Below are positions 7,333 to 44,342 of a DNA stretch of 64,000 nucleotides, in pieces. The notes beneath the pieces were generated by a model, which worked only from the letters and a program-made list of their open reading frames with translations, had not been told where the DNA came from and did not search any database. The position numbers were made by a program, and so were the translations under genes. Origin of the DNA: Gammaproteobacteria bacterium (GTDB lineage Bacteria > Pseudomonadota > Gammaproteobacteria > Xanthomonadales > SZUA-5); NCBI GenBank assembly GCA_030430155.1, contig JAUIFV010000002.1:33378-97377 (forward strand), given 5' to 3'. Each line of letters opens with the position of its first letter. Position 1 is the first letter of the stretch.

Positions 7333-8799
7333 TTAGACCATAAACCCCAGATCCCGCTCGGTCCCGATGTAGCCACCGGTGGCGGGGCCGAAGCGCGGCA
7401 TCGGGCCGGCCAGGCTGGGCAGGATCAGATCGATGTTGCTCTCGCTAAGGCCAAACCAGCGGGCCAGGGTGGCGGCGTATTGGTCGACCGCCAGCTTGGG
7501 GATGATCTGCCCCCAGCCGGCGTCATCGGGACCGGCGCGGGCCAGATCCGGCATCTCGCCGTAGATGTCGCGACCGCGTACCGCACCGCCGATGACCAGG
7601 TGCTCACCGCCCCAGCCGTGATCGCTGCCGTCGCCGTTGGCCGAGGAGGTGCGGCCGAAATCCGAGGCGGTGAAGGTGGTGACCTGATCGGCCACGCCCA
7701 ACTCGTCGGTGACGTCCTGGAAATACTGCAGGCCCAGCGACAGCGCGCGCAGCAGATCGCGATGGTCGCCGAGCAGCCGGTCGTGGGTGTCGAATCCGCC
7801 CATGCCGACGAAATAGACCTGGCGCTGCTGGCCCAGCGCGCCGCGCGCCGCGATCAAGCGTCCGACCATCCGCAGTCGCGCCGATAGCGCCGCATAAGCG
7901 CCTTGCGCCACCGCGCCGAAGCCCGCTGGCAGCGGCGGAATCGGGGTACTCAGGTTGATCCCAGCGAGGGCATCGGTGACCAGATCGTAGCTGTCGATGG
8001 CGCGCCGCTGCACCTGGGCCAGGGCGCGCTCGAAGAGGTGTGGATGGCTGGCGTCCAGCAGCGCATCGACCGCCGCCCGACGGGCGATCTCATCCGGCTC
8101 GTTGCCGTAGTAGGCGCTGCGCTGTTCGGCGCCGTTGCTCCCGATGCTGTAGGGCTGCACGCTGTTGCCGACCTGAAAAGTGTTCTGTCCGCTCAGGCTC
8201 AGGCTCATCGACAGCGCCTGATTGCTGTTGCCGGCCTGCAGCAGATCAGCGATGCGCCCGCCCCAGCCCAGCTTCTGGCGGCTGTCCGGCCGCGAGGTCT
8301 GCCAGAAGGTCTGCTGATCGGCATGCGAGAACAGCTGCGGCGGGACCGCGACGGTGCCGTTTTGGTATTCGACCCGGGTCACTGGCTCGATCAGCGGGCC
8401 GACATTGGCGACGATCGCGCAGCGACCGCTTTCGAACAGATCGCGAACCTCTGGCATTGCCGGATGCAGCGCGTAGTCGCGGCCAAAGGTCTGCGCGGTC
8501 AGCGGATTGATGTGGGTGGCCGGGCCCAGCTCGGCCAGCGGAATGGCCAGATTCGGCCTCGCGTCCTGGTATTGGGCGTAGGCGGCGGCGCTGCGCGGGA
8601 TGATGCTGTTGACGTTGTCGTTGCCGCCAAACAGGAACACGCAAACCAGCGCCCTGTAGTCACTGCCTTTGGCGATATCGCTTTGATCCAGCGCCGCTGC
8701 CTGCAGCAGCTGCAGTTGGCCCAGCTGCGAGTACAGCGCGGCGCCGCCCAGACCCTGACAAAGCGTTCGGGAAAGAAAGTCGCGTCGTTTCATGGCCAT
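7333..8799 (-). CDS. DUF1501 domain-containing protein
   Basis: MKRRDFLSRTLCQGLGGAALYSQ Tat-like leader; VFLFGGNDNVNSIIPRS; paired with DUF1800. Confidence 0.88.
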   Translation of the reverse strand: MAMKRRDFLSRTLCQGLGGAALYSQLGQLQLLQAAALDQSDIAKGSDYRALVCVFLFGGNDNVNSIIPRSAAAYAQYQDARPNLAIPLAELGPATHINPLTAQTFGRDYALHPAMPEVRDLFESGRCAIVANVGPLIEPVTRVEYQNGTVAVPPQLFSHADQQTFWQTSRPDSRQKLGWGGRIADLLQAGNSNQALSMSLSLSGQNTFQVGNSVQPYSIGSNGAEQRSAYYGNEPDEIARRAAVDALLDASHPHLFERALAQVQRRAIDSYDLVTDALAGINLSTPIPPLPAGFGAVAQGAYAALSARLRMVGRLIAARGALGQQRQVYFVGMGGFDTHDRLLGDHRDLLRALSLGLQYFQDVTDELGVADQVTTFTASDFGRTSSANGDGSDHGWGGEHLVIGGAVRGRDIYGEMPDLARAGPDDAGWGQIIPKLAVDQYAATLARWFGLSESNIDLILPSLAGPMPRFGPATGGYIGTERDLGFMV

Positions 8800-8801
8800 T
8801 C

Positions 8802-10532
8802 CTATTTCTGCACGCTGTATTCGGGCGAGGTGATGATCAAGTGGAGCGCTTCCCAGGTGCGACGGCGCCCGCCGGGGTCGTTGCCCGCGGTGAACGGGAT
8901 CGCCTGCAGATAGGGCAGCAGCACGCCGCGCATCTGCGCCGACATCAAACCGTTGAGCAGCAGCACGTCGAGGTGATCGAGCAGGTCGTTGGGATCTGCG
9001 GCCAGGCCCTGGATCGCGGTGAAGTCGATCAGCACCCGGTCCGGCGGCGGGTTCTGCTGGAAGGGCGAGCCGACGTGATCGAAGACCGACAGGCCGACCA
9101 GCTTGTTGGCAGTGCGGGTGACGAAGGTCTCGGTGGCGATCTGCAGCTCGGGCGAGTACAGGTCGGCGGTCGCGATCTCACCCGGGGCCTGGTAATCGGG
9201 CAGATAAAAGTTGAACACCGACGGCGAACGATTGGGCGCCTGGGCGTAGTGCTGCTCGGGATTGTGTTCGCGGTAGCGACCGTCCGCCGCAGCCGCGCCG
9301 AAGGCACGCCACAGGTGGGTCTGACGCAGGATCGGTTCGCGCACCTTGCCAAAGGTCTGCGGATGATCCAGATGGCCGACGCGCGCCTCCACATCGAGCA
9401 GGATCGCCCGCACCACCGCGCCCAGATCGCCGCGCACGCCGCTGCCGTTATCGTTGAAAACCGCCCCAACCCTGGCGATGTAGGCCGGACTGGGGTTGCT
9501 GGTGACCAGATTCTGGATCAGCCGACGGGCCAGGAACGGCCCCACGTTGGGGTGGCTGAAAATGTTGTCCAGCGCCAGTTCCAGATTGCCGGCCGCATTG
9601 CCACCGGGCGGCCGGCTGAAGCCGAGCAGGAAGTCGTTGTTGTCCGGGTCGGCGTCGGGTTCGGTGTGATGGAAGGCATCGAAAGGCTGCATCGGCTGGG
9701 TCCAACCCACCGAAGCGCCGCCGCCCGGACCGCAGAAGTTGAAGTCCACGCAACCGGCGAAGTGCCAGCCGGTGAAGGCGTGGGCGAAGGTCTTGATGTT
9801 GAACTGGTTGTAGCTGGGCAGCGGCTCGCCATCGACCAGCACCGGCGTGCCATCCGGGTTGAGCATGATCAGGCCTATGGAGAACAGCTGCAGGATCTCG
9901 CGGGCGAAGTTCTCGTCCGGACGGATGTTCAGCGCCACGTCCGGGGCGCGATTGGCGATCATGCTCAGGTAGGTGCCCATCGCCGGTGTGCGCGTCATCT
10001 CGCCCAGCAGCGTGCGGTAGTTGCCGAAGGCGTTGTCGATCAGCAGATCGTAATAGTGCGCCACCGAATAGGCCTGGATATCCAGCGCGGCCGACTGATC
10101 GGAGACGACCAGGATCTGACTCAGCGCATAGGCCACCCGCTGGCGCAGCTGGTCCTCGCCCTGCAGGGCATTGATCCACCAGCCCTCCAACCGCGCATTC
10201 TGAAACACCGGCTCCGGCAGCGCGGCGATGAAGTCCAGATAGGGCACGATGCGCGAGGCCGGCGCCGCCATCTGCGCGTCCAGCCAGGCGCTGTAGCCGC
10301 TGCTGCGCAGCGATTGGATCTCGGCCCAGGTGGGACCGAAGGTGGCCTGGGTCAGGAACCGCGCCGCCTCACCGTCGGTGGCCGGGAAATCGCTGAAACG
10401 GGTTTCAAAATCATCGACAAAGATCAGCTCCTGCGCCGACAGCGTGCCGGCCGCCGCGAGCAGCAGTGCCGCGCAGCCGCTGCGCCAATATGACCAGATC
10501 CCGCCCATGACCCACCCCGCATTTGCGTCCAT
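8802..10532 (-). CDS. DUF1800 domain-containing protein (exported)
   Basis: ATDGEAARFLTQATFGPTWAEIQSL; signal peptide from internal Met at 10532; start uncertain (ORF open to 10625). Confidence 0.85.
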   Translation of the reverse strand: MDANAGWVMGGIWSYWRSGCAALLLAAAGTLSAQELIFVDDFETRFSDFPATDGEAARFLTQATFGPTWAEIQSLRSSGYSAWLDAQMAAPASRIVPYLDFIAALPEPVFQNARLEGWWINALQGEDQLRQRVAYALSQILVVSDQSAALDIQAYSVAHYYDLLIDNAFGNYRTLLGEMTRTPAMGTYLSMIANRAPDVALNIRPDENFAREILQLFSIGLIMLNPDGTPVLVDGEPLPSYNQFNIKTFAHAFTGWHFAGCVDFNFCGPGGGASVGWTQPMQPFDAFHHTEPDADPDNNDFLLGFSRPPGGNAAGNLELALDNIFSHPNVGPFLARRLIQNLVTSNPSPAYIARVGAVFNDNGSGVRGDLGAVVRAILLDVEARVGHLDHPQTFGKVREPILRQTHLWRAFGAAAADGRYREHNPEQHYAQAPNRSPSVFNFYLPDYQAPGEIATADLYSPELQIATETFVTRTANKLVGLSVFDHVGSPFQQNPPPDRVLIDFTAIQGLAADPNDLLDHLDVLLLNGLMSAQMRGVLLPYLQAIPFTAGNDPGGRRRTWEALHLIITSPEYSVQK

Positions 10533-10736
10533 ACAGGGCGATAACGGATCGGTGCGGCGAAAACGACATGGGCATTGAATGGTCTTTTCGAAAGCCGCTC
10601 GTTGCGCGATGCCGTCATTGAGCACTGCGCCGACGGACTACGCAACCACCCCGTGCCGGCACCAGCCGCGCTTTGATTTTCCTCCCGGGGATTGGAAGAT
10701 GTTTGGTGACGCATGGCCGGTAAGGTTTGGATCTGC

Positions 10737-14147: not shown

Positions 14148-15263
14148 TCAAGCCACCATCCGCCGTCGCCAGAAGGGCTGATCGGCGAAGCGGGTCTCCG
14201 CACCGTAGAGGCGCTGATGCAGGCGCAGGTAGTCGGAAAACTCGGCAAATACGCCGCTTTGGTACTCGGCCAGCGCGGCATCACCTCCCCCGCCTAATCG
14301 CTCGGCGATGGCCTCGCCGGCACGCTCGCCCTGGGCCAGCGCCTTGCTGATTCCGGCCGAGGTCAGCGAGTCATAGCTGGCCGCGGCATCACCCACCGCC
14401 AGCCAACCGGTACCGGTGACGCAGGACAGGATCGCCGAGGGCGCGGCGCGCAGCCACAGCTCGCGCGGCTGCTGCGGCGCGATACCGAACTGTTCTACGC
14501 AGCGACTCAGCAGCCAGTCGTTGCTGCACAACGCTCGGTGCCAGCAGCCCGGCTGATCCAGCCGCTGGCGCTTGATCACATCGGCATCAGTGCACAGACT
14601 CACCAGTGCCCGCGAGCCGGGCAGCCGAGTCGCATACCACCAACCTTCGGGCGCTGCACAGATCAGCGTGTGCGCGGGCAGCTCGGGAGCCTTGGGGAGG
14701 GTAAAGAAGGCGCAGGCGCTGACTACGCAGTCGTACTCGTTGCGGACCACGCCCAACCCGCGCGCGGCACGAGCCTGGATGCCGCTGGCGTCGACCACGA
14801 AGTCCGCCCGTCGCTGGGTCCTGCCCGCCGGGCTTTGCACGGCCAGTTCGATCTGCGCGCCGTGGCGCTCTATGCCCATCAGCCGGCTGTCTGCGACAGT
14901 CGTTGCACCCAGCTGCGCTGCTGCGGCAAGCAGATCGGCATCGAAACGGACCCGGTCGAGGTGGTAGCCGGCGCCGACCGGAGTGAGAAAAAAGTCGTTG
15001 AAACCGGCCGTATCGCTGCCCCACAGCGAATGGCTGCCCGGACAGCGCAGATGCGGCGGGTCGTCCAGCAGTTGCGCCAATCCCTGCGCGCGCAGGGTCG
15101 CAGCAGCCGCCGGCGGCAGCGTCTCGCCGATCGCCGGGCCAGGGCGACGCGGTCCATCGAGCAGAGTGATATCGACCGCATCGGCGCAGGCCCGAGCCAG
15201 CGCGATCGCCGTCGCACAGCCGGCCGGCCCGGCGCCGATGATGTAGACCTGGGGACGCTTCAT
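14148..15263 (-). CDS. LodB/GoxB-type FAD-dependent oxidoreductase (predicted CTQ maturase)
   Basis: VYIIGAGPAGCATAIALARA, GETLPPAAAATLRAQGL, WLAVGDAAASYDSLTSAGISKAL; next to LodA homolog. Confidence 0.78.
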   Translation of the reverse strand: MKRPQVYIIGAGPAGCATAIALARACADAVDITLLDGPRRPGPAIGETLPPAAAATLRAQGLAQLLDDPPHLRCPGSHSLWGSDTAGFNDFFLTPVGAGYHLDRVRFDADLLAAAAQLGATTVADSRLMGIERHGAQIELAVQSPAGRTQRRADFVVDASGIQARAARGLGVVRNEYDCVVSACAFFTLPKAPELPAHTLICAAPEGWWYATRLPGSRALVSLCTDADVIKRQRLDQPGCWHRALCSNDWLLSRCVEQFGIAPQQPRELWLRAAPSAILSCVTGTGWLAVGDAAASYDSLTSAGISKALAQGERAGEAIAERLGGGGDAALAEYQSGVFAEFSDYLRLHQRLYGAETRFADQPFWRRRMVA

Positions 15264-15281
15264 TGCGGGCGGCCGAGTGCG

Positions 15282-15565
15282 CTTGTGGAAACTTGCCTGC
15301 AGGCGATTTGGACCTCCGCGGATCGCCAGCAGGGCTGGCTCCAACAGGTGGTGCGCCGCAGCGCCCCGTTGAACCCGACCATCTCAGGATCCAGCAGCGC
15401 TGCTGTAGGAGCCTGCCTGCAGGCGATCGTGATGGATCGTTCAGCTGACGGGTGCCGAGACACCGACGCGCGTCCGCGGTGTGCCGAACGCGCTTTTCCG
15501 GTCGCCAATCTACCGGCAATCCAAACCATCACCGATCGCCAGCAGGGCTGGCTCCTACAGGTGGA
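15282..15565. repeat. REP-like inverted repeats between lodA-like and lodB-like genes
   Basis: gtaggagcctgcctgcaggcgatc (15405-15428) and gatcgccagcagggctggctcctac (15534-15558), plus related pair 15282-15347. Confidence 0.65.
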
Positions 15566-15588
15566 GCGCCACCAGCGCACCTGGCCGC

Positions 15589-17691
15589 TCAATCCTGCCC
15601 ATGCGGACACGGCGGCGAACCCGGCGGGCCGCAGTCGGTGGGTGACTGGTAGCCATCGATGGTCGGCTGCGGCCACGGCCCCACCGCGTCGCCGTCGCTG
15701 TCAAACAGGCTGGCCACCTCCAGGAACAGTTGCGGACCGTAATTGCCGCCCGGCGGCGCCGGGATCTGGGTGCCCTGGATCACAAAGCCCACCTTGTGCC
15801 AGTTCTGCACGAAGTCGTAGTAGCACTGATAACGGCCCTGCTGCTGCGGGTAGTCGGTCAGGGTGCCGTTGCTGTCGCTGCCGCCGTCGCCGCGCACGCT
15901 GTACAGCTGCCCGCCCAGTTTCCAGCGCCCGCTGCTGCCGTCATAGGTGCAGCGATCGGCCGGATAGACGGCCACTGGCCGCTGCGCTGGCCACGACCAG
16001 TACAAGGTGTTGTTGCCGGTCGGATTGGGATCGGGGGTGTGCGTAGCGCAGCTGTTGTAATCGGTGTGCCAAGGCTGCGACATGAATTTGCAGATATCGC
16101 CCGGCTCCACCGGCGCGGTGCGCAAGGGCACGTAGCCCACGGTCAGGAAAGGCGCGCTCTTGTTGGCATTGGCGTACTCCAGCTCGGCGCGGTTGATGCG
16201 GAATGGACCCGTGGTTCCGGTCCAGCTCTGCGCATACAGATTCACATCGCGAACGATGAAGGTCAGATCGATACCGGGGGAATAGCGTCCACCCAGGCAG
16301 TTTTCCATGCTCACGCGGTCGAGCTTCTCGCCCGCGCCCAGCGGCGTCCCTGCAGCCACGAACTGCCCTGCATACCACTGACTGAGCAGCGCGTATTGGG
16401 TGGGCGTCACCGACAAGAAGCTCTTCTGCGCATCGCCCAGGGCCAGCGGCATCTTCACCCCTTGATCGTCCTCACTGGCGTTGTTGGGGTCGCGGATCAG
16501 CTGCTGGAAGCTGGGCAGCTTGGCGCTGGGCGTGTCGGCCGCAGTGATACTGGCCATGTACTCGTGACCATTGATCGCCTGCTGCGGCAGATTGGTGTTC
16601 CACTGCTGCAAAAAGGCGCCGTGGAACACCGGCAGCACGTCCTGATCGAAGGCGCTGGTATAGCTGGTCGAGAAGCTGCCGCCGCTGTACAGGGACGGCA
16701 CCAGATCCAGATCACGCACCCAGGTGTCGTAGATGTCGTCCCAGGTCGAGACCACGTTGCGGGTCTGCGGCGCATAGCCGGGGTCGGTGCACACCACCCA
16801 GCCGTTGACCGCCTCCACCGTCGACTGATCGTCGAAGACCACCGTCGCGCGGACCGGACCGTCGGAGGTGTCGTCGAACCAATCGTCATTGTCGATGGCG
16901 TCGCAGAGCATCGGCGGCTTGCCGCCGGTTTCCACGCCGCTGGCACGGCCGTAGCCGCCGATGACTATCAACCGGCCGCTGCCGGCCTCGATGGTCATCT
17001 CGCCCAGGGTGTTGATGGCGCCCAGCGGATTGAACATCGTGAAGTGATCGTCGGGAAAGCTGACCGGATAGTTGGGCTGGGTGGCGATGGAGGTGCCGCT
17101 GGCGTAGCTGGGCGTGGTCTGATTGTCGAAGGCCAGCGTGGTTGCGCCGTTGCTGCTGGCGTACAGCGCACGCGGGCCGGCGTCGATGACCAGCGTCTGG
17201 CGGCGCTTGCTCAGGTCCAGATCGGGTCCGTACTGCGGGTTGCGCACCGGCGGCGTGTGGCCGTTCTCATAGGACTCGATGCCGTACTCGCTCTTCTGAC
17301 CATTGATGGTGTCGGTAATGGTGTAGTTGTTGTTCTTCTTGTTGGCCAGATGCACCGTCCAGATGATCTCGCTGATGGTCTTGCCGTCGATCTTGTCGCC
17401 GACCTTGACCTCGCGCCCCGGGTCATTGCTGGGGTACTGGGTCTGCGGCTGCTCGTAGACGAACAGGCGGAATCGCGCCGCTTGGCGCTTGGGCTGCTTG
17501 CCCGCATCGCGGAAGCCCTCGGCGTTCAGTGGCGTGCTTTCAGTGCCGGCCTGCACCGGCAGGCCGCCGAACAAGCCGGAGGTCTGGTCGACAATCTCCC
17601 CGGCCGCGGTCTCCGGCGCCAGGTAGTACTCCGCGCTGCTGCCCACGCGGGCCATCGCAATGCTGGGGTGAACTCGAAAATAGGCTGCCAT
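15589..17691 (-). CDS. LodA/GoxA-like CTQ-dependent amino acid oxidase family protein
   Basis: N-term HPSIAMARVGSSAEYYLAPE; candidate CTQ region MENCLGGRYSPGIDLTF and PWHTDYNSC...LYWSWPAQRP. Confidence 0.85.
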   Translation of the reverse strand: MAAYFRVHPSIAMARVGSSAEYYLAPETAAGEIVDQTSGLFGGLPVQAGTESTPLNAEGFRDAGKQPKRQAARFRLFVYEQPQTQYPSNDPGREVKVGDKIDGKTISEIIWTVHLANKKNNNYTITDTINGQKSEYGIESYENGHTPPVRNPQYGPDLDLSKRRQTLVIDAGPRALYASSNGATTLAFDNQTTPSYASGTSIATQPNYPVSFPDDHFTMFNPLGAINTLGEMTIEAGSGRLIVIGGYGRASGVETGGKPPMLCDAIDNDDWFDDTSDGPVRATVVFDDQSTVEAVNGWVVCTDPGYAPQTRNVVSTWDDIYDTWVRDLDLVPSLYSGGSFSTSYTSAFDQDVLPVFHGAFLQQWNTNLPQQAINGHEYMASITAADTPSAKLPSFQQLIRDPNNASEDDQGVKMPLALGDAQKSFLSVTPTQYALLSQWYAGQFVAAGTPLGAGEKLDRVSMENCLGGRYSPGIDLTFIVRDVNLYAQSWTGTTGPFRINRAELEYANANKSAPFLTVGYVPLRTAPVEPGDICKFMSQPWHTDYNSCATHTPDPNPTGNNTLYWSWPAQRPVAVYPADRCTYDGSSGRWKLGGQLYSVRGDGGSDSNGTLTDYPQQQGRYQCYYDFVQNWHKVGFVIQGTQIPAPPGGNYGPQLFLEVASLFDSDGDAVGPWPQPTIDGYQSPTDCGPPGSPPCPHGQD

Positions 17692-17709
17692 GATTCGTTT
17701 CTCCCTGCG

Positions 17710-19140
17710 CTATTGCGCGTCTTCTTGCGACCAGAAATAGATGTTCTGCAGCGCGTGCGAAATGTTCAGATTCGACGCCGGCAGCGGCTGCAGATCGACC
17801 TGCGGCGGGAACTGCTGCATGGTGTTGTGGCAGCGGAAGCAGTTGTTTTCGGTGCTGGCGACCTGGGTGAAGGTCTCGATGGTGGCGTTGGACAGACTCA
17901 GCGAGCCGGCCAGCAGCTCATCGGTGGCGATCGACAAGCCAGGCTGCAGCGTATCGGTGCCCTTGAACCACACTGCACCCACCTCGGCGTAGTTCTTCCA
18001 CACGTCGTCGGGATCAAACATCGAGGCCACGGAGGCATTCAGGGTCTGGATGTTCTTGTCATTGATGGTGTTGACGCCCGCGGCATTGCCGAACTGATAT
18101 TGCCGGCAGGCCTGGGTGATCGGGCTCAAGGTCTGAGTCTGCTGGTCCAGCTTGAGCTGGCCGTCGCTGGCGTTGTTGACGTTGCAGTCGGCCAGAGTGG
18201 TGCCGGCGGTGTAGAAGGTGTAGTCCTGATCCGACACCGGTTGATCCAGGGTCAGCGGGGGATCGGTGACCGGCACATTCGGCGCGTTGCGCTGATGCTC
18301 GAAGGTGGCCCAGATCATCTCCGGATGGCCTTTGACGATGCCGGCGATATGGAAGCCGACCAGGGCCACGGTGACCTCCTCGGTCTGCGTGGTATCGATC
18401 ACGATCTGACCGTCGCGATTGACCAGCTTGGCGATCTCGGTCTGCATGGTGAACATGTCGCTGGCGTCGAAGCCGTCGGTGACCACCAGCCAGGAGACCT
18501 TCAGCTCCATCGCTCCCGCAGTGCCTTCGATGGGGAAATTGGTCGCTGGATCGGCCGCGATCAGCGCCTGCAGCGCGCTGGGGTCGGTGAGATTGTTGGA
18601 CTGCACGAAGTTGACGAAGGTGGAGTCCAAGTATTGCGAGTAATAGACCGAGCGGCCGTTGTGGGCGACGAAGATGCCGTCGGTGCCGGCCTGCAGGTAC
18701 TCGTCCAGGCTCTCGGTGGCATCGCTCTTGGCCATCCGCGGCAGCATCCCGGTGCGTTCATTGCCGAGCAGCGACTCCGGCGTGGCAAAGCTCAAAAAGC
18801 GCGGCTGACCGTCGACATCCTGGGTCAGCCAGAGGAAGTTCTGCCAGGCCCACTGGTGGAAATCGCAGTTGCTGCTGTTGGGAAAGGCCGAGTCGTCAGT
18901 GCGCTGGGTCTGCGAGTGCGGAAACCACGCCGACTTCGCGTCGCAAACGCCGATATCGCCAGACTTCTCGATCACCGCGTCCACCACCGCCTTGGGGGGC
19001 GTGCTGCTGGCAGTCGATCCGTTGGAAGCCGTTTCGGTTGATGCCGGTTCGGTCCCGGGTTGCTTGGACTGCCAGAAGATCATGCCGGCGACAAAGGCCA
19101 GCGCGACGAGTATCAAGGTATTGCGTAGGGCCGTATTCAT
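17710..19140 (-). CDS. Membrane-anchored protein with one CxxCH heme c motif, cotranscribed with the LodA-like gene
   Basis: N-terminal TM anchor MNTALRNTLILVALAFVAGMIFW; C-terminal NNCFRCHNTMQQFPP; 18 nt upstream of lodA-like start. Confidence 0.65.
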   Translation of the reverse strand: MNTALRNTLILVALAFVAGMIFWQSKQPGTEPASTETASNGSTASSTPPKAVVDAVIEKSGDIGVCDAKSAWFPHSQTQRTDDSAFPNSSNCDFHQWAWQNFLWLTQDVDGQPRFLSFATPESLLGNERTGMLPRMAKSDATESLDEYLQAGTDGIFVAHNGRSVYYSQYLDSTFVNFVQSNNLTDPSALQALIAADPATNFPIEGTAGAMELKVSWLVVTDGFDASDMFTMQTEIAKLVNRDGQIVIDTTQTEEVTVALVGFHIAGIVKGHPEMIWATFEHQRNAPNVPVTDPPLTLDQPVSDQDYTFYTAGTTLADCNVNNASDGQLKLDQQTQTLSPITQACRQYQFGNAAGVNTINDKNIQTLNASVASMFDPDDVWKNYAEVGAVWFKGTDTLQPGLSIATDELLAGSLSLSNATIETFTQVASTENNCFRCHNTMQQFPPQVDLQPLPASNLNISHALQNIYFWSQEDAQ

Positions 19141-29037: not shown

Positions 29038-29934
29038 TTAGGCAACAGCTCCCTGCTTGATGGGCGGCAAGGCGGCGGCGATGACCTTATTCAGTCTCGG
29101 CGCCAGGGTGGCGAATCCGGATTCGGTCGGGTGAATCTCGTCGTTCCAGAACTCATCCGTAGCGGCCTCAGCGACAGTGCTGAAATCGGCAAAATCAAAC
29201 AGCGTGCTGTGGGCGTCGCGCAGCGGATTGAGCACCTGGTCTCGAAAGCCTTCAACCAGCAGCATCTGAGCGAACTCACGGCCAGCCTGCTTGTTTTCCA
29301 GCAGGCGCTCCATGACGTTCCACAGCCACGGCCCCACGTCGCCCTTGACAAAAGCGATCAATCCCACGTTCCTGACCGTCAGTTCGGCCTTGGCACCGAT
29401 CCGCTTCAGCGGCGCATAGCCGTGCCCGACGACGCGGAAATGCGGCCGCTCCTTTTGCACCTCGGCAGCCATTTCGAGCATGGCCTGGTAGCGCTCCAGC
29501 AATCCGCCGTCCTCGCTGCGATTGCTAAAGATGCCAAAGCGCACCACCTTGTCGAAGGCTTGGCGCGGGGAAAGTGGACCGTTCTCGGCGGCAAACACCT
29601 TCTCCAGTCTCCGCGAGAGGCTGTCGTTGCCTCCGGCGCTGACGACCAGCACGTCAAATGGATAAGCGATCAGGCGCTTTCGCAGCGATTTCAATTGCGA
29701 TTCGGAGAACAGCTGTGCGGCCAGACCTCCCGGCTTTCCGGCAACGAAGCCCAATCCGTCGACGCTTCGGGCGCTCTGCTTGGCCAGGTTGGGATACAGC
29801 GGGGTGGAAAACCAGGAGTCGCCAAGGTAGGCGATTGCCGGTCGGGTCTGCAGAAACTCGTTTATGTAGCGGCGCTGTTGCGCGCGACGACCGATCACTT
29901 CACGCCAATTACTCCATTGCGAAATCAACTCCAT
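29038..29934 (-). CDS. SGNH/GDSL hydrolase-like protein, paralog 1
   Basis: YLGDSWFSTPLYPNLA, VVSAGGNDSLS, DEIHPTESGF; paralog of 43443..44342. Confidence 0.78.
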   Translation of the reverse strand: MELISQWSNWREVIGRRAQQRRYINEFLQTRPAIAYLGDSWFSTPLYPNLAKQSARSVDGLGFVAGKPGGLAAQLFSESQLKSLRKRLIAYPFDVLVVSAGGNDSLSRRLEKVFAAENGPLSPRQAFDKVVRFGIFSNRSEDGGLLERYQAMLEMAAEVQKERPHFRVVGHGYAPLKRIGAKAELTVRNVGLIAFVKGDVGPWLWNVMERLLENKQAGREFAQMLLVEGFRDQVLNPLRDAHSTLFDFADFSTVAEAATDEFWNDEIHPTESGFATLAPRLNKVIAAALPPIKQGAVA

Positions 29935-43442: not shown

Positions 43443-44342
43443 TCAGCGCACCGCGGCGCGTTTGTTCGCCGCCAGCGCGGCGCGAATCTGGTCATTCAGC
43501 GGTGCGGCGATCTGTGCAAAGCCGGACTCGGTGGGGTGGATCTCGTCGTACCAGAAGGCATCGTCGTCGGCGCCGGGGAAGTCGGCGAAGTCGGCGTAGC
43601 TGAACAGACCCGGGTGATCGTTCCGGGTCGGCTTGAGCACCTGTTCGCGGAAGCCATCGACCAGCAGCCGCTTGGCGAAGTGTTTGGCTGCCGCCTGGTC
43701 CACCAGCACATGCTGCATCGGCCGCCACAGCCAGGGACCAACATCATCTTTGAGCCAGGCGATAATGCCGATATTGCTGGTGTTCAATTCGCCCGGTACG
43801 CCGATGCGCTTGAGCGGCGCATAGCCGTGACCGACGACCCTGAATTGCGCTCGCTCAGCCTGCACTTTCGCCGCCATCTCCATCAGCAGGCGGTAGCGCT
43901 CGCGGATGCCGCTGAAGGTGCGGCCGGCGTTAAGCAGATCATAGGCCGCATCGGGGTCGATCTTCGGTTCCACACCGGGGTTCTCGGTCCACTTGGCGAA
44001 CACCCTGGCCAAGCGATCGGACAGGCTGTCGTTGCCGCCGGCGCTAACCACCAGCACGTCGAAGGGATTGGCCTTAAGGCGCTTTTCGATGCGGCGCAGC
44101 TCGCGCTTGGCAAACAACTCGCTGGCCAACGCCCCCGGCTTGCCCACCACCATCCCCATACCCTCGATGGTCTTGGCGCTTTGCCGAGCCAGATTCAGAT
44201 ACAGCGGCGTGGAGAACCAGGAGTCACCCCAGTACATCAGCATCGGTCGATCGACCAGCCAGCGGTCCAGATTGCGCCGCTGCCGGGTGCCCCGGCGACC
44301 ATAGACTTCGCGCCAGTCGATCCAGTGATTGATCAATTCCAT
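43443..44342 (-). CDS. SGNH/GDSL hydrolase-like protein, paralog 2
   Basis: MELINHWIDWREVYGRRGTRQRRN...YWGDSWFSTPLYLNLARQSAKT...VVSAGGNDSLSDRLARVF...DEIHPTESGF; paralog of 29038..29934. Confidence 0.8.
   Translation of the reverse strand: MELINHWIDWREVYGRRGTRQRRNLDRWLVDRPMLMYWGDSWFSTPLYLNLARQSAKTIEGMGMVVGKPGALASELFAKRELRRIEKRLKANPFDVLVVSAGGNDSLSDRLARVFAKWTENPGVEPKIDPDAAYDLLNAGRTFSGIRERYRLLMEMAAKVQAERAQFRVVGHGYAPLKRIGVPGELNTSNIGIIAWLKDDVGPWLWRPMQHVLVDQAAAKHFAKRLLVDGFREQVLKPTRNDHPGLFSYADFADFPGADDDAFWYDEIHPTESGFAQIAAPLNDQIRAALAANKRAAVR

Follow-up and report, generated by a model that had tools for sequence, protein, structure and literature searches.

The locus analysed here is a real and conserved variant of the LodA/LodB type, in which a LodA-like quinoprotein and a LodB-like flavoprotein are accompanied by a heme-motif protein from an unnamed family, termed here CYT. 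It is located in the window, the whole stretch of 64,000 nucleotides that was analysed, and consists of three minus-strand genes transcribed in the order CYT (19140-17710), LodA-like (17691-15589) and LodB-like (15263-14148). This is the arrangement given in the preliminary description of the DNA, which placed the LodA-like gene between a LodB-like gene and a co-oriented CxxCH gene. Judging from the sequences, CYT is likely to be a functional redox partner of LodA.

The three gene products

The LodA-like protein (15589-17691, minus strand) is a predicted CTQ quinoprotein of 700 amino acid residues containing LodA_N and LodA_C domains. The Pfam matches are PF17990 (E=3.6e-50, 171 bits; cut-off 26 bits) and PF18417 (E=1.5e-36, 126 bits; cut-off 25 bits). 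The nearest solved structures in the search of PDB sequences are the lysine 6-oxidase LodA and the glycine oxidase GoxA. In NCBIfam the protein scores 223 bits for LodA and 144 bits for GoxA, while the equivalog cut-offs are 600 and 750 bits, respectively, and the equivalog level is reached for neither. Because these scores are far under both cut-offs, the protein is a member of the family but neither LodA nor GoxA proper, and its substrate is not readable from homology, despite LodA and GoxA being the closest structures.

The CTQ residues of LodA are C516 and W581 (PMC4417212). In the window protein, C548 (16048-16050, minus strand) lies opposite C516 in the PDB alignment and W567 (15991-15993, minus strand), in the motif WSWPAQRP, is the Trp of the predicted cofactor. 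The acidic residue D544 (16060-16062, minus strand) is near the Cys. All three residues are invariant among the 61 LodA-family proteins aligned (61/61). The LodA/GoxA-like protein with CTQ Cys and Trp, as first proposed, is therefore confirmed by both LodA Pfam domains and the invariant C548 and W567. Several residues close to the cofactor, among them H542, Y545, H551, W565 and S566, are specific to the clade of the window protein, each being present in at least 25 of its 26 members and rare outside; W565 is only two residues ahead of W567. These signature residues may have some bearing on the substrate or the electron path. Taken alone they are no marker of cytochrome use, because the one clade member that lacks CYT has most of them. 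In the LodAs of this clade hardly any sequence precedes the LodA domain, and no Sec or Tat signal is recognisable.

The LodB-like protein (14148-15263, minus strand) is a putative FAD-dependent maturase of 371 residues, starting from the ATG at 15263 with a GxGxxG dinucleotide-binding segment (IIGAGPAG). Its top NCBIfam matches, maturase_LodB and maturase_GoxB, are equally good (E=1.5e-64 each), which agrees with the earlier assignment of a LodB-like flavoprotein. The gap between the CYT and LodA genes is 18 nt. The gap between lodA and lodB is about 325 nt and contains degenerate palindromic repeats of the GTAGGAGC type (15281-15570, no strand assigned). The sequence TGTAGGAGC is present in 3 copies in the window compared with 0.19 expected. 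A tRNA-Thr proposed by ARAGORN between lodA and lodB (15534-15608) was rejected; it overlaps the 3' end of lodA and a repeat, and has no Rfam support. Elsewhere in the window, a DUF1800 protein (8802-10625, E=1.7e-76) is adjoined on the same strand by a gene (7333-8799) with an RRDF motif at its start, suggestive of a Tat signal. The genes at 29038-29934 and 43443-44342 have similar starts (MELI..W.DWREV.GRR) and are apparent paralogs 14 kb apart.

CYT (17710-19140, minus strand) is a putative exported protein of 476 residues with a hydrophobic anchor (residues 9-23) and one c-type heme motif. The predicted site of heme c attachment is CFRCH (residues 434-438; 17827-17841, minus strand), in which C434, C437 and H438 are invariant in 88 of 88 aligned family members. 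The other residues invariant in these 88 members are F102, K214, H264, W277, Y384, W391, E422 and Q426. K214 (18499-18501, minus strand) belongs to a K-x-x-W motif, and H264 (18349-18351, minus strand) is a candidate, at the level of a guess, for the second axial heme ligand. In a wider set of 132 family proteins, picked by profile with the heme motif not used as a criterion and with a small number of overlapping copies from a single locus included in the count, CxxCH is present in all 132 and occurs exactly once in 130. Genes for cytochrome c assembly are present in the source genome. The preliminary description held the protein to be membrane-anchored with one CFRCH motif. The single motif stands, and an anchor is seen in the window CYT and its nearest relatives, but most other members resemble cleaved-signal proteins or lipoproteins; by inspection, the N-termini of the family appear as a hydrophobic anchor, a signal peptide or a lipobox. 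A second CYT-family paralog, with the motif CVGCH and no adjoining LodA, is present on the same contig beyond the window (G000:C100:14013-15053; L002, L023).

The AlphaFold model of CYT, for which plasmid-derived and most of the distant alignment rows were left out of the input, is confident, with a pLDDT of 84.8 and a pTM of 0.82; the values for the core alone are 92.1 and 0.88. The predicted structure consists mainly of β-strands that form a large domain, with the heme motif close to the C-terminus. CYT matches no Pfam family, and its matches in NCBIfam and among the PDB sequences are at chance level only. Foldseek gave no match in the PDB at E <= 0.001 for either the full model or the core, so that the fold has no detected counterpart, and a search of a viral structure library also gave no match. 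No known cytochrome fold was found for CYT by Pfam, PDB sequences or Foldseek with the full and core models. The CYT family is thus an unnamed, widespread family with a heme motif and without a Pfam entry, structure or fold match.

Conservation of the gene order and LodA phylogeny

A profile scan of 84,980 species genomes gave 579 relatives of CYT, and the best 80 loci were read. Among these 80, the next same-strand gene is a LodA in every locus where CYT is at least 42% identical to that of the window, as well as in many others, and LodB follows LodA wherever the contig extends far enough. The gap from the CYT stop codon to the LodA reading frame is -4 to 100 nt in complete reading frames; a larger apparent overlap in one locus (L026) results from an upstream start codon. 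The gene order CYT-LodA-LodB is found in Gamma- and Alphaproteobacteria, Bacteroidota and Verrucomicrobia. The hosts include Sessilibacter, Bermanella, Alteromonas, Oceanospirillum, Saccharospirillum, Ferrimonas, Xanthomonas, Pseudomonas indica, Acidisphaera, Eilatimonas, Aureivirga, and metagenome-assembled genomes of Chitinophagales and Verrucomicrobia. In Xanthomonas sacchari and Pseudoalteromonas xiamenensis the three genes are located on plasmids.

Since the collection made from the CYT side is biased, a second search started from LodA. It covered plasmids and three sets of genomes, 369 from the class of the window, 399 from its phylum and 385 from another proteobacterial class, to which genome G472 belongs. 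Of the LodA loci found in this way whose flanks were read, five belong to the clade of the window LodA: the window itself, G151, G863 and the plasmids of P. xiamenensis and X. sacchari. CYT is present in four of them. In G863, on a short contig without CYT, a ferritin-like protein (PF12902) occupies the CYT slot. No CYT was found in the fetched flanks of the 37 LodA-side loci outside this clade. The difference between 4/5 and 0/37 is significant by the Fisher test (p=4.5e-5), and remains so with the window omitted (3/4 versus 0/37, about 4e-4, calculated by hand). The CxxCH partner, whose conservation beside LodA homologs the preliminary description had named as decisive, is thus conserved beside the LodAs of the window clade. 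CYT genuinely belongs to the LodA/LodB locus, and the association is not due to chance.

The phylogeny within the LodA groups, which had been suggested as a check, ties CYT to particular LodA branches. In a tree of 61 LodA proteins the window protein belongs to a clade of 26, which is supported at 100/100 and whose stem is 1.27 changes per site long. CYT is present in 25 of the 26; the remaining member has the ferritin-like protein in the CYT slot. The catalase-fused LodAs of three Pseudoalteromonas also have CYT upstream, while their nearest sampled relative (G545) has none. The pairing is therefore found on two separate LodA branches. On the side of the tree that includes the window clade, four further LodAs form a clade of their own and are preceded by a ferritin-like gene. 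A PF12902 gene directly upstream of LodA, in the slot of CYT, was observed in L130, L142, L165, L166 and L190, and this domain is also known near fungal lodA genes (PMC4417212).

The window clade most likely corresponds to group IB of the 2015 survey of the LodA family by Campillo-Brocal et al. (PMC4417212), as judged from protein names and sizes. In that survey, Oceanospirillum beijerinckii is represented in both group IB and group III, by one protein each, and the catalase domain is confined to group III. The 973-residue protein of this species carries a catalase domain and fits group III, while its 692-residue LodA (L034) is in the window clade; this is the reason for the assignment. The survey reports that the LodA-like protein of Caulobacter, a group IB member, takes part in generating H2O2; the word cytochrome is absent from the main text of the survey (PMC4417212).

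Other members of the CYT family have different neighbours. In at least four genomes (G318, G205, G375 and Azospirillum ramasamyi) CYT is followed by a small subunit and then by a GMC oxidoreductase. Of the small subunits, two match PF12318 FAD-SLDH over the cut-off and one under it; the large ones match GMC_oxred_C. No export signal is recognisable in these GMC partners or small subunits. In the individual CYT/FAD-SLDH-like/GMC operons L116, L118, L119 and L139, the signal is found in CYT only. In other genomes, the neighbours of CYT are ferritin-like genes (PF12902) and a large protein that has no Pfam match. The CYT-family genes of L050, L105 and L024 are flanked by such a protein of 614-658 residues, with PF12902 genes too in L050 and L024, and these loci are possibly another redox module with the same heme protein. 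In Flavobacterium (L059-L084) the gene immediately preceding CYT belongs, in 21 of the loci read, to a small protein family with one member matching DUF1842 (PF08896). The majority of CYT-family members, for example, those of Flavobacterium, have no adjoining LodA. The GMC, ferritin-like and DUF1842 neighbours indicate that the CYT family is no accessory specific to LodA, but supplies several enzymes with a heme partner.

Possible role of the heme-motif protein

The retention of CYT beside a LodA branch in very different bacteria suggests that the electrons of LodA go to the heme protein instead of, or besides, O2, and it is plausible that CYT turns LodA into a dehydrogenase. The reading that we prefer, with the balance standing about even, is that CYT serves the window LodA clade as its dedicated heme redox partner, most likely as the electron acceptor, with LodA acting wholly or partly as a dehydrogenase. 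The main reason for preferring an acceptor role is that CYT relatives are found with GMC oxidoreductases and small subunits. Fructose, gluconate and sorbitol dehydrogenases are GMC enzymes with small subunits of this kind, and their third component is an electron-accepting cytochrome.

The reaction could proceed as follows. By analogy with the family, the LodB-type flavoprotein would hydroxylate the Trp destined for the CTQ of LodA. The mature LodA would then oxidise an amino acid or amine, leaving reduced CTQ, which would hand its electrons to the heme of CYT; heme attachment, direct contact and the direction of flow are all presumed in this step. CYT, exported and anchored as its N-terminus suggests, would feed the periplasmic cytochrome pool, with a soluble cytochrome c as a possible acceptor. 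The weak point of this scheme is location, since an export signal is recognisable in CYT but neither in the window-clade LodAs nor in the GMC partners. A twin-arginine signal in GoxA has been linked to the presence of GoxA in the culture supernatant (PMC3948610). The acceptor role is also opposed by the H2O2 link of the group IB Caulobacter protein (PMC4417212), by the ferritin-like protein in place of CYT in G863, by the many CYT-family members without LodA, and by a fold that is unmatched by any known electron-transfer cytochrome. The more general proposal, that the whole LodA clade consists of dehydrogenases working through a cytochrome of new fold, and that the CYT family is a plug-in acceptor recruited by CTQ, GMC and possibly ferritin-like proteins, is tentative, with the balance somewhat against it.

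The same H2O2 link would be expected if LodA were a peroxide-producing oxidase, as are the characterized LodA and GoxA (PMC4417212, PMC3948610), and CYT an exported, peroxidase-like heme protein that renders the peroxide harmless, senses it or puts it to use. The presence of CYT with the catalase-fused LodAs is a case of heme and peroxide handling clustered with LodA, and a reactive heme could make use of two invariant polar residues, K214 and H264. However, CYT beside a catalase-fused LodA would mean two peroxide functions in one locus, the protein has no sequence or fold likeness to a known peroxidase, and its family also heads GMC operons with dehydrogenase-type components. This explanation is considered unlikely. 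The GMC operons also bear on the idea that CYT is a second maturation factor completing CTQ, in the way that MauG, a di-heme protein, matures TTQ. Such heme-dependent maturation would be in accord with the strict association of CYT with one LodA clade and its LodB. It is treated as a rival only, since relatives of CYT are also the partners of GMC flavoenzymes, which have no protein-derived quinone; moreover, LodB-type genes adjoin LodA in CYT-less groups as well, and CYT has one heme motif, not two. We regard it as improbable.

CYT could also be an anchor, a secretion aid or a substrate-binding partner, in which any heme would be structural. With about 476 residues and a large, mainly β domain, it is far bigger than a heme carrier needs to be, and partner enzymes that lack export signals might conceivably share it as a helper in export or in attachment to the surface. 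Nevertheless, CxxCH is the most strictly kept feature of the family (132/132), which a structural role alone would not require, and the probability of this explanation is low. The occurrence of CYT-family genes away from LodA might even suggest that CYT, LodA and LodB are neighbours without a shared function. This is hardly credible after the survey, as the gene order is kept over several phyla and on plasmids and is tied to LodA branches.

Comparison with known systems

It is reasonable to compare CYT with cytochromes P460 and c'-β, which it resembles in being mainly β, in having a single CxxCH near the C-terminus, and in an invariant K-x-x-W that aligns, in one alignment, with the region of the cross-linking Lys of P460. 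The P460 structure 6hiu is at Foldseek rank 4 for the full CYT model (probability 0.20), and a G-x4-K-x-x-W pattern is common to CYT and P460. The hhalign probability against the P460 profile is 31-36%, driven by CxxCH, and the strand with K-x-x-W alone gives E=0.03. The profile score exceeds all 200 column shuffles, but it originates in the CxxCH motif itself. There is no match to PF16694 in CYT by Pfam, none of the top 50 PDB matches to the core model is a P460, and the fold match is unconvincing. A kinship with P460 is thus not supported and is considered as a weak lead only.

The resemblance to the three-component membrane flavodehydrogenases lies in the occurrence of CYT relatives with a GMC oxidoreductase and a PF12318 FAD-SLDH small subunit. 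The cytochrome subunits of the known enzymes of this type carry several hemes. In the window, in contrast, the partner is a CTQ quinoprotein, and CYT has one heme motif and is unlike the known cytochromes in sequence or fold.

In quinohemoprotein amine dehydrogenase (QHNDH) the CTQ is located in a small subunit inside a heme-bearing complex. The common features are the formation of CTQ with the help of a flavoprotein, which in QHNDH is QhpG (PMC7876137), and a transfer of electrons to a c-type heme, which for the window locus is a proposal. The window LodA is not a small subunit of a heme complex of this kind. Its CTQ residues are in a LodA-type protein of 700 residues, and the heme-motif protein belongs to an unnamed family.

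The characterized LodA-type enzymes are H2O2-making oxidases with roles in competitor killing and biofilm dispersal. If the conserved heme partner acts as proposed, part of the LodA family would instead feed a respiratory chain, and the expected biology would change accordingly. The partner also provides a concrete test for uncharacterized groups of the LodA family, and naming the CYT family would aid the annotation of many 'hypothetical proteins'. The closest comparison is with LodA/LodB and GoxA/GoxB of Marinomonas mediterranea, with which the window locus shares the LodA_N and LodA_C domains, the CTQ Cys and Trp, and the downstream LodB-type flavoprotein. It differs from them in that its LodA belongs to a separate, long-stemmed clade, under both equivalog cut-offs, and is preceded by a gene with a heme motif.
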